46,076 nucleotides of DNA from Ruminococcus sp. (GTDB lineage: Bacteria > Bacillota > Clostridia > Oscillospirales > Acutalibacteraceae): contig JAFRDE010000024.1 of NCBI GenBank assembly GCA_017403985.1, positions 1-46,076 of the forward strand, read 5' to 3'. Below are positions 8,323 to 12,516 of this stretch, piece after piece. Position 1 is the stretch's first letter. Each line of letters begins with the position of its first letter. The notes beneath the pieces are model-generated. The model did not search any database, was not told the DNA's origin, and worked only from the letters and a program-made list of their open reading frames with translations. A program made the position numbers and the translations under genes.

Positions 8323-8350
8323 TTGACTTACCCGAAAAAAACAGTATGAT
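8323..8350 (+). promoter_or_regulatory. Promoter of the RyR-domain cassette
   Basis: TTGACT and TATGAT are spaced by 16 bases about 64 bases upstream of the start codon. The 222-base divergent gap also has to hold the leftward promoter for the hydrolase operon, which I could not place with confidence. Confidence 0.6.
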
Positions 8351-8413: not shown

Positions 8414-10843
8414 ATGACAGCGTTCTTTATCGGATTGACCAAAACGGATATCCTGTTTTTGATCCACATCATTCTCTCGGTACTCGTATTATGCGCAACG
8501 GTAATCTTCTCCGTTAAGCGCGCGAGATCGCACTCGGAGATTAAGCATCTTTTTTCCGCTCTGCGCATCCTGACGTTCGGTACCTTTATCTCCTGTATTA
8601 TCATCCATCTGCCGTTCTATTATTACGGCGAATACATATATCATGACGGCTATACCTTTTTTCGACCGTTCATCATGTCGATACACAGTACCCTTCAGGC
8701 TTTTGTTTTAGGCTTTAATTACAGGGATCTGATGGAGGATATCCCCGAACTGAACGACGTCATCAACGCGGTTTACACCTGTATCGTCGCGATCCTGTAT
8801 ATCATCGCTCCTATCCTGACTCTCACCAATATCCTCTCCCTGTTCAACGCCTTTTTAAGTGAATTGAAGATAAAACGGAACTTTTTCCGCCGCAAGCCTC
8901 TCTATGTTTTTTCGGAAATGAACGGACAGTCGATCGCCATAGCGCAAAGTATCGCCGAAAACTATCAGGATTCCAAGAAAAACAATGGAAATCAAAAAAA
9001 GCTCCGAAAGCCCCTGTTGGTCTTTACCGACTTTTATCCGTCAGAAACCGAACCGGATCAGGATATGCTGCAATCGGCTCAGAATCTGAAAGCCGTATGC
9101 GTCAAAACGGATATCACCCATCTGAAGCTCAACAAAAAAAGATATCCGATCGAATTCTTTATCATCGGCGGGGATGAATCCGAGAACATGGAGCAAGCCA
9201 TCAAGCTCAACGACGAATACAAGGATTCTTCCAAATGCTCCGTTTACTTGTATTCCGCCAAACCGAACGCCGGGTATATCCTGGACTCTATAGACAAAGG
9301 CAAGCACACCATCACCTCGCGTAAGCTGACCCCGAAAGACGCAGAGGATTTTCTCGATAACAAAGAATCCGCCAAAGAAGCCTACAGCAGTGATAACAGT
9401 TATTATTACATCCGCCGCGTGAATGTGGTAAACTCCTTTACGATCAAAGCGCTCACCGACAGCGCCCTGATGCAGAAACTGTCGGAACAGGCAAGATCGA
9501 AAAAAACGATCTCCGTCATGATCGTCGGTCTCGGTCTGTACGGCACAGCTTTTCTGAAAAACGCATTATGGCTGTACCAGTTCAAAGGCTGTACGCTGAA
9601 AATCCACGTTATTGAATCAGAAAAAAAGGAAACGCTTCGTGATAAGATTGCCAAAGAAATGCCGGGTTTATCCGCACATCTCTGCAAAGATGAAGCTTCT
9701 TTCCTGCACTATTGTTCCGATACAGAAGGAGACTGTTTATTTGACGTCTTTATCTATCATTCGATCGATTGTGAATCCTCCCATCTGAACGATCTGATTC
9801 TGCAGCAAAACAAATTTGAACCTGCCGCATTCGGCGATGTATCGCCAAAGGAACTCCCGAACAGGTTTATTGACGTATACGCAGCTTTCGTCACGTTAGG
9901 CGATGACAATAAAAACATCGAGACCGCAGTCATTCTCAGAGGTCTGTTCGACAGGATAAAGCATATCAAAAACAAAGATTTGATAAACATTCCGGCGAAC
10001 GAACTGCCGCTCCTCTATTCCGTAGTTTACGACAACAGAACTGCCCAAAATCTCAACTGCGGCAATAACGGCAAAAACAGTAAAGACGACAAAAACAATA
10101 CCGGTATCATCTGTTATAACGACATTCCTTATCATATCCATTTTATCGGGCGCATGTCGGAGCATTTCCATTATGATACGATCAGGGAAATGAAGAAACA
10201 GGAAGCCAAAGCGATCTGCCATCATGTTGAATGGATCCAGAACGAAAGCGCTCTGCGGGAATGCTTCCGTACCGATCCGAAAAGCGTCAAAGACAAAAAA
10301 ATCGAAGAATCGCTTACCAAATTTCAAAAGGAGATGCAAGCCGACTTCACCGCTTTCTACGGCGGTGAAGAAGTGTGGTATGACAGAAAATTCTACTATA
10401 CCGGCAAAGATATCCTGAAAAAGAAAGGCTCTGAAAAGTTCAGAAGAAAAACCGGCTCTATTAAAAAGAAGCTCAAGCTGAAAACAGAATGGATCAAAAC
10501 CAAAGCGGTCGAGAACAACGTCAATCTGTATGACCAGTACGAATATTACAGAGACTCTTCGGTCGCCAAAGAAACCTACTGCAAATTGATCCGCGACGAC
10601 GCTTTCAAAGAGTATTTTGAAGAGAATTTCAACGCATCCAACCACATCGAAGAAAAACCGTACGAAAAAATCTGTTCCTGTAAAAAATGCATCGCGTTCA
10701 GAGAGAGCGAGCATATGCGCTGGAACGCCTATATGATTTCAAATGGATATCGCTACGATCCCATCCGCAACGACCGCGCCAAAACGCATCCAAATATCCA
10801 GCCGTGGCATAGCCTGCCGGTATCCGACAAATACAAGGACTGA
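8414..10843 (+). CDS. Membrane protein with two TrkA-N-like domains and RyR-like C terminus
   Basis: An 809-residue protein not recognised as any named family. Four membrane helices lie at about residues 11-33, 48-70, 82-100 and 118-147. Next comes RRKPLYVFSEMNGQSIAIA (from 159), a strand-turn-helix like the start of a TrkA-N/RCK nucleotide-binding domain. A second Rossmann-like start, VMIVGLGLYGTAFLKNA, has glycines at 372, 374 and 377, followed by a strand ending in Glu (IHVIE), as in NAD-binding folds. A basic Lys-rich stretch and a CSCKKC cluster (754-759) lead to a C terminus EHMRWNAYMISNGYRY...NDRAKTHPNIQPWHSLP. This parallels the RyR motif of the next gene position by position but stops before the final helix. 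The helices lack a K+ filter such as GYG. Codons are A/T-richer than in neighbouring genes, suggesting transfer. A modest GAGG precedes the ATG. A ligand-gated membrane sensor or channel is inferred, not shown. Confidence 0.7.
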   Translation: MTAFFIGLTKTDILFLIHIILSVLVLCATVIFSVKRARSHSEIKHLFSALRILTFGTFISCIIIHLPFYYYGEYIYHDGYTFFRPFIMSIHSTLQAFVLGFNYRDLMEDIPELNDVINAVYTCIVAILYIIAPILTLTNILSLFNAFLSELKIKRNFFRRKPLYVFSEMNGQSIAIAQSIAENYQDSKKNNGNQKKLRKPLLVFTDFYPSETEPDQDMLQSAQNLKAVCVKTDITHLKLNKKRYPIEFFIIGGDESENMEQAIKLNDEYKDSSKCSVYLYSAKPNAGYILDSIDKGKHTITSRKLTPKDAEDFLDNKESAKEAYSSDNSYYYIRRVNVVNSFTIKALTDSALMQKLSEQARSKKTISVMIVGLGLYGTAFLKNALWLYQFKGCTLKIHVIESEKKETLRDKIAKEMPGLSAHLCKDEASFLHYCSDTEGDCLFDVFIYHSIDCESSHLNDLILQQNKFEPAAFGDVSPKELPNRFIDVYAAFVTLGDDNKNIETAVILRGLFDRIKHIKNKDLINIPANELPLLYSVVYDNRTAQNLNCGNNGKNSKDDKNNTGIICYNDIPYHIHFIGRMSEHFHYDTIREMKKQEAKAICHHVEWIQNESALRECFRTDPKSVKDKKIEESLTKFQKEMQADFTAFYGGEEVWYDRKFYYTGKDILKKKGSEKFRRKTGSIKKKLKLKTEWIKTKAVENNVNLYDQYEYYRDSSVAKETYCKLIRDDAFKEYFEENFNASNHIEEKPYEKICSCKKCIAFRESEHMRWNAYMISNGYRYDPIRNDRAKTHPNIQPWHSLPVSDKYKD

Positions 10844-10845
10844 TG

Positions 10846-10871
10846 AGCGCGCATGTTCATCGGCGCTTTTT
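10846..10871 (+). terminator. Weak hairpin plus T-run between the two RyR genes
   Basis: AGCGC and GCGCT pair over a 12-base loop and are followed by TTTT, starting three bases after the stop codon. The stem is short, so partial read-through into the small RyR gene is likely. Confidence 0.4.
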
Positions 10872-10906
10872 CAGTCAAAACCGATATACTGCAGAAGGGT
10901 GATCAT

Positions 10907-11188
10907 ATGTATAATCCGAAACCAATCGACACAAGCTCTGTCGAACTCAGCAGCGAGCTGACTGAGCTCACCGAAAAACTCGCGGAAAACGTCCACGACA
11001 TATGGGCGCAGGGCAGGATCAAAGAGGGCTGGACCTACGGCAAAGAACGCAACGACGCCCTCAAGCAGACTCCCTGTCTTGTCCCTTACGACGAACTGCC
11101 CGAGTCAGAAAAGGAATACGACCGCAATACGGCTGTATCCACCGTAAAAATGATACTGGCGATGGGATTCAGAATCGAAAAGCCCTGA
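10907..11188 (+). CDS. Stand-alone RyR-domain protein
   Basis: A 93-residue protein that is essentially one RyR domain (Pfam PF02026 type, named after the repeats in ryanodine receptors). The hallmark residues are all present: ENVHDIWAQGRIKEGWTYG, then ERNDALKQTPCLVPYDELP and EKEYDRNTAVSTVKMILAMG. A short Ser/Glu-rich helix precedes the domain. I chose the ATG behind AGAAGGGTGATC; an upstream in-frame ATG at 10853 lacks a ribosome binding site and lies in a hairpin. It has no membrane segment. It sits between a larger protein ending in the same motif and a ClC-type protein, so it may bind the same ligand or act as a soluble partner. Prokaryotic RyR domains have no firmly established general role known to me. 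Confidence 0.85.
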   Translation: MYNPKPIDTSSVELSSELTELTEKLAENVHDIWAQGRIKEGWTYGKERNDALKQTPCLVPYDELPESEKEYDRNTAVSTVKMILAMGFRIEKP

Positions 11189-11230
11189 ACGGTCCATCCG
11201 CCAATACACTTCTGAAAGGAAAACGGTGTT

Positions 11231-12451
11231 ATGAAAAAAGCAAAAAACAGCATACTGTTTCTACTGTACACCATCATCCTCGGCGCGATCGTCGGCGCGA
11301 TCATCTGGGCTTTTCTGCGCGTAATGAATCTCGGTATCGAACTGATCTGGCATATCGTGCCCGAGCAGCTCAACTTTCCGCTGTATACGCTGTGCGTATG
11401 CACGGTGGGAGGTCTGCTGGTCGGCTTATGGAAGCGTAAATTCGGGGATTATCCCGAAGAGCTTCCGGTCGTACTTGCACAGGTCAAACAAACCGGGCGT
11501 TATCCCTATAACAATGTGTTCTCCATACTCGGATCTGCGCTGTTCCCGCTCATATTCGGCGCTTCCGTCGGTCCCGAAGCGGGACTCACCGGCGTGATCG
11601 CGGGGCTGTGCACCTGGGTTGGCGACAAGCTCAAGCGCTTTCGCAAGGAGGTGCAGGAGCTGACCGCCATCGGCATGAGCGCGACGCTGGGCACGATCTT
11701 TCGTTCGCCGATGTTCGGCTTCGTCGAGCCGCTCGAATCCGAGAGGGATACCGTTCTGCCGAAAACGTCCAAGATCGTTCTCTATTTCGCCGCTATCCTC
11801 AGCTCGTTCGGCGCTTTCATCCTGCTGAACAAGCTCGTTGGAGGCGGCGCCGGGATCGAGGGGATCGAAAAGGAGAGCATACCGCTTACCTCCTACCTCT
11901 ACGCCATACCGCTGACGCTGGTCGGTATAGCGGCGGGTTATCTCTATTTCCTCTTCAAAAAACTGACAGACACTCTGGAGCAAAAGTTCAAAAAATATGT
12001 CGTGCTGCGCGCCGTATGCGGCGGATTACTGTTAGGTGTTTCCGGCACCCTCATTCCGCTGACGATGTTTTCCGGCGAACACCAGATCGCCGAAGTGATG
12101 GCGGATATGAAAACCATCGGCGCGGTGATGCTGCCGGTGATCGCCGTCGTCAAGCTGCTCCTGACCAACATCTGCATCAGCTCCGGTCTTAAGGGCGGGC
12201 ACTTCTTCCCCGTCATCTTCTGCGGTATCTGTATCGGCTGCTCGATGAGTATGCTGTTCGGCATCAGCGCGGTACTCAGTACCGCGGTCGTCACCACCGC
12301 CCTCGTCGGTCATACGATGAAAAAGCCGTTTGCGACCGTCCTGTTGCTGATGATCATCTTCCCTCCCCTGCTGATACCGATCATGCTTGCAGCCGCCGTT
12401 GCGGCAAAGTTCATCCCTACGCCGAAGGCGCTGTTGCCTGAACAGGCATAG
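11231..12451 (+). CDS. ClC-family chloride channel or Cl-/H+ antiporter, divergent
   Basis: A 406-residue polytopic protein with about ten helices. GASVGPEAGLTG (110-121) occupies the place of the ClC selectivity motif GREGP. SGLKGGHFFPVIFCG (about 318-332) corresponds to the conserved GxFxP loop of the anion pathway. The usual gating Glu before GP is absent and a Glu follows it instead (E116), as in the YfeO-like branch. Whether it is a channel, an exchanger or a fluoride-type transporter cannot be decided. The start follows AAAGGAAAACGG. It lies 42 bases after the small RyR gene in the same direction and ends in a strong terminator, so it is probably the last gene of the cassette. Confidence 0.85.
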   Translation: MKKAKNSILFLLYTIILGAIVGAIIWAFLRVMNLGIELIWHIVPEQLNFPLYTLCVCTVGGLLVGLWKRKFGDYPEELPVVLAQVKQTGRYPYNNVFSILGSALFPLIFGASVGPEAGLTGVIAGLCTWVGDKLKRFRKEVQELTAIGMSATLGTIFRSPMFGFVEPLESERDTVLPKTSKIVLYFAAILSSFGAFILLNKLVGGGAGIEGIEKESIPLTSYLYAIPLTLVGIAAGYLYFLFKKLTDTLEQKFKKYVVLRAVCGGLLLGVSGTLIPLTMFSGEHQIAEVMADMKTIGAVMLPVIAVVKLLLTNICISSGLKGGHFFPVIFCGICIGCSMSMLFGISAVLSTAVVTTALVGHTMKKPFATVLLLMIIFPPLLIPIMLAAAVAAKFIPTPKALLPEQA

Positions 12452-12487: not shown

Positions 12488-12516
12488 AAAAGGCTGTTCA
12501 GCGAACAGCCTTTTTT
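12488..12516 (+). terminator. Intrinsic terminator after the ClC gene
   Basis: AAAGGCTGTTC and GAACAGCCTTT pair around a 3-base loop and run into six T residues; the A-run on the left lets it also serve the opposing gene. Confidence 0.9.

Follow-up and report, generated by a model that had tools for sequence, protein, structure and literature searches.

P809 and a free RyR-domain protein form a two-gene unit in Ruminococcus sp.: a putative TIR-linked, channel-like effector

A contig of Ruminococcus sp. (JAFRDE010000024.1, assembly GCA_017403985.1) encodes an 809-residue protein, here called P809, which joins a predicted membrane part to a tandem RCK-like gating ring and ends in half of a RyR domain. 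P809 and the gene for a free RyR-domain protein directly downstream form a two-gene unit. The pair is best explained as an RCK-type, channel-like effector gated by a NAD-derived signal that a TIR enzyme makes, probably in anti-phage defence; this reading is given a probability of about one half. The window, that is, the whole stretch analysed, is the entire 46-kb contig (46,076 nucleotides). It belongs to a 2.68-Mb genome in 63 contigs which is 99.6% complete with 1.7% contamination. A preliminary description had joined both genes with a ClC transporter gene in one cassette. The three co-directional open reading frames are confirmed, and the locus contains the following features:

8414..10843, forward strand: P809, 809 residues; membrane part, tandem RCK-like gating ring and C-terminal half RyR domain; proposed ligand-gated membrane effector
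8441..8887, forward strand: predicted helices 10-38, 49-71, 83-98 and 115-158 of P809 (AlphaFold model, hydropathy)
8900..9313, forward strand: first RCK-like Rossmann domain, about residues 163-300 (model, Foldseek; limits by eye)
9506..10033, forward strand: second RCK-like Rossmann domain, about residues 365-540 (model, Foldseek, alignment; limits by eye)
10673..10690, forward strand: CxCxxC motif of P809 (C754, C756, C759), ahead of the RyR half
10700..10840, forward strand: half RyR domain of P809 (H767, W770, H792, D809)
10840..10863, forward strand: terminator-like hairpin in the gap between P809 and the RyR gene (pattern scan; -12.0 kcal/mol, z -2.0)
10907..11188, forward strand: free RyR-domain protein, 93 residues from the ATG at 10907 (Pfam)
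11231..12451, forward strand: ClC-family transporter, 406 residues, bystander (Pfam)
12488..12514, forward strand: intrinsic terminator 3' of the ClC gene (-15.9 kcal/mol, z -5.0)

Anatomy of P809 and pairing with the free RyR gene

The AlphaFold2 model of P809, based on a 46-sequence alignment, has a predicted local distance difference test score (pLDDT) of 87.0 and a predicted TM-score (pTM) of 0.84. Four helices are followed by two Rossmann-type domains and a helical C-terminal part; the two nucleotide-binding-like domains proposed earlier are thus borne out. A Foldseek search of the PDB places GsuK at the top (E 3.4e-4), followed by TrkA gating rings (2.3e-3) and Slo1 (6e-3 and worse); four of the 547 matches have E-values below 0.001. 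By these leading matches P809 has the RCK gating-ring fold, with loose superposition. Among the 46 aligned proteins, Pfam TrkA_N is found in nine and RyR in 18 (best 7.8e-8) at an E-value of 0.01 or better; for P809 itself the only match is to RyR, with none to TrkA_N. The GxGxxG motif of the second Rossmann domain (G372, G374, G377) is near-invariant in this alignment.

The C-terminus of P809 holds the four ligand residues of RyDEP, a phage RyR-domain protein in which the quartet H-W-H-D was defined (PDB 35TM; preprint PMC13232231, available part). These are H767, W770, H792 and D809, the last being the final residue of the protein. Their spacing (3, 22 and 17) equals that of H75, W78, H100 and D117 in RyDEP. 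All 46 aligned sequences keep the quartet, at a mean column identity of 23%. With phmmer, residues 765-809 align with residues 74-118 of 35TM (E 0.043 for the whole protein, 6e-4 for the last 64 residues). A family-alignment scan of the genome collection gave 232 relatives of P809, and the best 80 are used for all counts of relatives below. HxRW is present in 79 of these, and 67 have the His and Asp further on; ten of the misses are unparsed, two have another residue at the Asp step and one has no HxRW. From Trp to His the step varies between 21 and 33 residues, being 22 in 20 proteins and 27 in 37. When the last 120 residues of P809 are modelled alone (pLDDT 77.4), RyR domains fill all of the best 50 of 141 Foldseek rows, with probabilities of 0.98-1.00 and E-values of 0.08 and above. 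Four of the 42 rows in the alignment behind that model are free RyR proteins, so the RyR fold of the P809 end is supported but unproved.

The free protein is a complete RyR domain of 93 residues, as described earlier; it matches the full Pfam model at 131.1 bits (cut-off 27.4). Together with the P809 end it accounts for the only two PF02026 matches in the whole genome, and three PHROGs families of unknown function match both. Of the 80 loci, 11 have a free RyR gene within 1 kb of the P809 relative, always on its strand and no more than 83 bp away; as a distance control, the regions 5-10 kb away contain one free RyR in 481 kb. The pair is also present in three loci of the family-level sample (L051, L054, L055). 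This pairing supports the link between P809 and the RyR gene, and the unit is the pair rather than the trio. A further mark of paired proteins is the CxCxxC motif before the RyR half, found in 10 of 11 of them versus 6 of 68 others (Fisher p 5.6e-8, for related sequences that are not independent; L173, which has no HxRW, was excluded). CxCxxC (10673-10690) may be a metal or redox site. The hairpin at 10840-10863 between the two genes, overlooked by the preliminary description, is a possible attenuator. Neither P809 nor the free RyR has an NCBIfam family. A Bestrophin-like Pfam match (E 0.37) was dismissed as noise.

Neighbour counts were made on all stop-to-stop frames; greedy gene calling missed some genes that lie under longer antisense open reading frames (in L048, and the RyR genes of L137 and L144). 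Five of the 80 loci are shorter than 4.3 kb. The samples overlap: L134, L135, L137, L139 and L144 come from genomes that also gave five of the genus matches, and four contigs occur in duplicate (L164/L045, L174/L049, L160/L239, L150/L241).

TIR genes around P809 relatives

TIR domains are enriched next to P809 relatives, an association missed by the preliminary description. In successive bins of 0-1, 1-2.5, 2.5-5, 5-7.5 and 7.5-10 kb around the 80 relatives there are 11, 5, 3, 6 and 1 TIR domains, corresponding to densities of 0.74, 0.25, 0.10, 0.23 and 0.04 per 10 kb. Eleven of the 80 relatives have a TIR domain within 1 kb, compared with seven domains in 481 kb at 5-10 kb (0.15 per 10 kb); none was found in 15 control ClC loci (221 kb). 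Nine of the TIR neighbours are same-strand open frames within 53 bp. In the family-level sample, five of 12 loci with P809 relatives have a TIR nearby (L045, L047, L048, L051, L058). Three of the eleven seeds of the TIR profile (L045, L047, L051) adjoin P809 relatives, so the profile leans slightly toward P809-linked TIRs. Other contigs of the Ruminococcus genome carry nine open frames that together give ten TIR_2 matches above the cut-off.

Several loci join TIR and RyR in other arrangements. In L056 (2039-3556, reverse strand) and L057 (9329-10846, forward strand), which represent two species of one genus, a K+ channel with Ion_trans_2 over the cut-off and a TVGYGD filter ends in a C-terminal RyR domain (28.1 and 27.9 bits, just over the cut-off) and adjoins TIR_2 genes; this protein is the clearest candidate for a RyR-gated channel. 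In L243 (7560-13193) genes for a TIR_2/ThsB_TIR protein, a P809-like protein and a free RyR are packed closely in a row on one strand. In L252 (5812-11066), from another family of the phylum, a TIR_2 gene lies between two proteins with RyR over the cut-off, one of which also has an AAA match. A DUF4062-STAND gene follows the P809-RyR pair in L054, and DUF4062 proteins are reported to be TIR-like NADases with phage defence (preprint PMC13174449, available part). Free RyR genes away from P809 adjoin TIR genes in L062 and L063. A second P809-like gene lies within 5 kb in 14 of the 80 loci.

Other neighbours are recorded here as side observations. On a single contig, L087 (690-6398) carries a pair of serine-recombinase-like genes (by eye) together with a TIR gene (profile E 6e-20) and a free RyR in which two ligand positions are Phe and Asn. 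In L061 (9616-12474) and L067 (9627-11501) a His-type free RyR is found beside proteins that resemble SLOG with transmembrane helices by eye (no such Pfam match for L061). CASTOR/POLLUX-like channel proteins are found beside P809 relatives in L162 (1-1263; Pfam sub-threshold) and L240 (8252-10348; by eye).

Proposed mechanism and competing explanations

Upon phage attack, a TIR enzyme acting in trans would make an ADP-ribose-type signal, probably supplied here by TIR genes elsewhere in the genome. The half RyR of P809 would sense this NAD+-derived nucleotide, most likely a cyclic ADP-ribose (cADPR) isomer or ADP-ribose. Ligand binding would then shift the RCK ring so that the membrane part opens or closes; ion flow would change and the cell would stop. 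The free RyR may tune the response, either as a second sensor half or as a signal-binding damper like the phage sponges. P809 can be described as channel-like by architecture and, by analogy, would work like a K+ channel, although it is not classed as one. The ligand-binding theme of the preliminary description is likely to hold, given that phage RyR proteins are reported to bind cADPR isomers (PMC13232231, in part); the coupling to ClC is not supported.

A more specific form of the preferred reading is a split sensor. The half RyR of P809, which is His-type and stops short of the last helix, and the complete, Thr-type free RyR would combine to a two-repeat unit resembling animal Repeat12, which reads TIR-made cADPR isomers and gates the RCK channel. 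Two points hint at this. In animal R12 structure 5c30 one repeat carries His and its partner Asn at the place occupied by His in P809 and by Thr in the free RyR (hand count); in addition, P809 is without the last helix, which contributes to dimer formation in RyDEP (PMC13232231, in part). Taken as a whole the scheme is tentative and rather doubtful. If it is true, it would be an immune counterpart, perhaps a precursor, of cADPR-RyR channel control in bacteria.

A number of observations weigh against the reading of P809 as a TIR-signalled channel. By hydropathy only three of the four modelled helices, all four of which had been called membrane helices, appear to span the membrane; helix 83-98 is short and polar (best mean hydropathy 0.88). 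TM-scores by query length are at most 0.29 among the best 50 rows (GsuK 0.24) and the superposition is loose; with scores this low, the likeness to RCK proteins is one of fold and part order. P809 contains no GYG or GFG that could serve as a K+ selectivity filter, and the DNA pattern for TVGYG-D/E occurs in 19 of 243 loci but not in L003, which covers the P809 gene; the pore is therefore inferred. Residues 764-808 score 20.1 bits against Pfam RyR (model positions 26-70 of 91; cut-off 27.4), and the protein ends near the expected start of the last RyR helix, leaving that helix missing. The RyR-like C-terminus proposed earlier stands by its quartet and a probable RyR-like fold, but with a Pfam score below the cut-off it is not classed as a full PF02026 member. 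The free RyR keeps three of the four RyDEP ligand residues (H30, W33, D72) and has T55 in place of the third, a His. No TIR domain lies within 1 kb of 69 of the 80 relatives; 63 loci have 1 kb on both sides and 17 are short on at least one, so short contigs account for only part of this absence. The 46-kb window holds no TIR gene, and hence lacks the same-locus TIR of a Thoeris system. The PADLOC 2.0.0 models give no family for any of the three proteins at E<=1. Partners of other kinds recur within 5 kb when neighbours are grouped by sequence cluster: AAA+/M41-type proteins in nine of the 80 loci, and in 11 a transglutaminase-like membrane protein of very large size, each cluster being named from one representative. 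The AAA+ representative (L157, 6551-10027) has an FtsH-type M41 peptidase domain and the transglutaminase-like one (L164, 3869-9568) has 1,899 residues. Given the missing TIR gene in the window, the many relatives without TIR and the missing K+ filter, the ligand, the pore and the defence role are put forward conditionally.

The free RyR might instead be an off-switch, which soaks up or cleaves the signal as RyDEP does and was possibly captured from a phage. This is compatible with the preferred reading; it is possible, if somewhat unlikely. RyR proteins with as much as 71% identity to the free RyR are found in eleven IMG/VR loci, some of which are near-duplicates; this is consistent with the published counter-defence role of such proteins in phages. 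The residues kept in the free RyR include the equivalents of the RyDEP catalytic dyad, and six of eight tested phage homologues bound cADPR isomers (PMC13232231, in part). However, none of these other than RyDEP cleaved them, according to the same available part of that preprint. The position of RyDEP H100 also differs: it is Thr in all 15 paired free RyRs examined versus His in seven of the eight IMG/VR proteins examined (the eighth has Asn), so the phosphate contacts of the paired proteins should differ. Twelve other bacterial free RyRs have Thr in eight cases and His in four. The residue table omits L068 and the IMG/VR loci L079, L082 and L088. A pattern search of viral contigs for P809 returned seven stretches, with no relative among them. 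In five of the IMG/VR loci (L078, L079, L080, L083, L086) an adenylosuccinate-synthase-like gene lies 3' of the RyR gene with two genes between (by eye).

P809 could also be a housekeeping channel or regulator for ion homeostasis. In this case the RCK and RyR parts would read ATP, ADP or NAD, the free RyR would be a regulatory subunit, and there would be no link to phages. TrkA is regulated by ADP/ATP (PMC6987127, in part) and the R12 repeat of animal RyR binds adenine ligands (PMC13232231, in part); the 69 relatives without a TIR domain within 1 kb also fit. All but one of the best 80 relatives are from Clostridia or groups within it (L195 is from Eggerthellaceae). The patchy presence of P809 argues otherwise: counting its own genome each time, it is found in 15 of 120 genomes of the genus, 15 of 200 of the family and 6 of 398 of the phylum. 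Five genus relatives have the site without the pair. In four of them (L274, L275, L277, L278) the BofC-like and penicillin-binding protein genes are kept and other genes lie beyond; in the fifth (L276) other genes are directly upstream. P809-RyR is thus an accessory segment, either acquired in this genome or lost from others. Patchy presence, sites without the pair and TIR enrichment are unlike a housekeeping gene, and the housekeeping explanation is unlikely.

Alternatively, the membrane part may be an anchor only, with ligand-driven assembly of the RCK-RyR ring signalling to another protein and no conduction. The missing K+ filter, the polar helix 83-98 and the AAA+/protease and transglutaminase-like neighbours would all suit such a protein. 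Set against this, the nearest folds are gating rings of channels or transporters, L056/L057 have a true K+ channel with a RyR end, and F97 and P133 in the membrane part of P809 do not vary across the 46 aligned sequences. An anchor is accordingly quite improbable.

The cassette of the preliminary description, with anion flux through ClC coupled to ligand binding by RyR, is refuted as a general unit and can be set aside with near certainty, the 42 bp gap and the strong terminator only after ClC notwithstanding. The ClC gene itself is genuine (Pfam Voltage_CLC, PF00654; 130.7 bits, cut-off 24.8), and the terminator after it is strong, as stated earlier (-15.9 kcal/mol, z -5.0), yet was unlisted by the pattern scan. 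The promoter said to precede the genes did not hold up: a 10/12 match lies at 8323-8350, but the region has seven promoter-like sites compared with a shuffled mean of 7.4. By profile there are no ClC genes in 1,281 kb around the 80 relatives. The same profile gave 15 matches in the 15 control loci, 12 of which are training loci, and none in 25 and 10 further loci. The preliminary description had held that relatives which never neighbour RyR or ClC genes would count against it; the relatives adjoin RyR genes but, within the flanks covered, not ClC. Its other condition, a structure prediction lacking a RyR fold at the end of P809, did not come about, as the modelled end resembles RyR domains. 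The gene order in the window is hydrolase, P809, RyR, ClC, BofC-like (a label from a sub-threshold Pfam match), penicillin-binding protein, homoserine dehydrogenase and aspartokinase. L134, whose P809 is 66% identical, repeats this order without ClC; in L144 (49% identical) P809 and RyR precede the penicillin-binding protein, again with no ClC. Nine ClC orthologues with 71-78% identity were found in 60 genomes of the genus, all in other neighbourhoods without P809 or RyR; their neighbours by eye include dapA/dapB-like, hsp33-like and amylase-like genes. ClC looks like a bystander which was gained or lost separately from P809-RyR.

Comparison with known systems

Among the matches listed in the literature search (titles and abstract starts) there is no paper on a bacterial RyR-domain channel; a 2025 preprint on TIR systems may overlap. 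The available part of PMC9503650 does not mention RyR. P809 resembles GsuK, TrkA/TrkH and Slo1 (BK) in having a Rossmann gating-ring fold under membrane helices. It differs from them in having a RyR sensor and no TVGYG, and the likeness is distant, at about 10% identity with low TM-scores.

Phage RyR proteins bind Thoeris signals (PMC13232231, in part), and some P809 relatives adjoin TIR genes, one of which matches ThsB_TIR. However, the ThsA effectors of Thoeris are SIR2-SLOG or macro-domain proteins (PMC11204291, in part), whereas P809 has no adjoining TIR gene in the window. PF02026 is common to RyDEP and the pair; the P809 end keeps all four ligand residues with the same spacing and the free RyR keeps three. 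The two differ in context: RyDEP is a phage counter-defence enzyme or sponge, while here the host encodes the domain, as a fusion to a membrane RCK protein.

The animal ryanodine receptor is a giant Ca2+-release channel, unlike P809, but the half domain of P809 aligns with its R12 repeat. Cyclic ADP-ribose has been implicated in the control of animal RyR, and its direct interaction with R12 was left to future work (PMC13232231, in part). A compact bacterial protein that combines a RyR pocket with a channel-type gating ring, and whose relatives adjoin TIR enzymes, would make this question testable in a simple system. If the preferred reading is true, channel-type effectors would join TIR immunity, and P809-RyR would be a variant among the TIR-linked nucleotide-signalling effectors.

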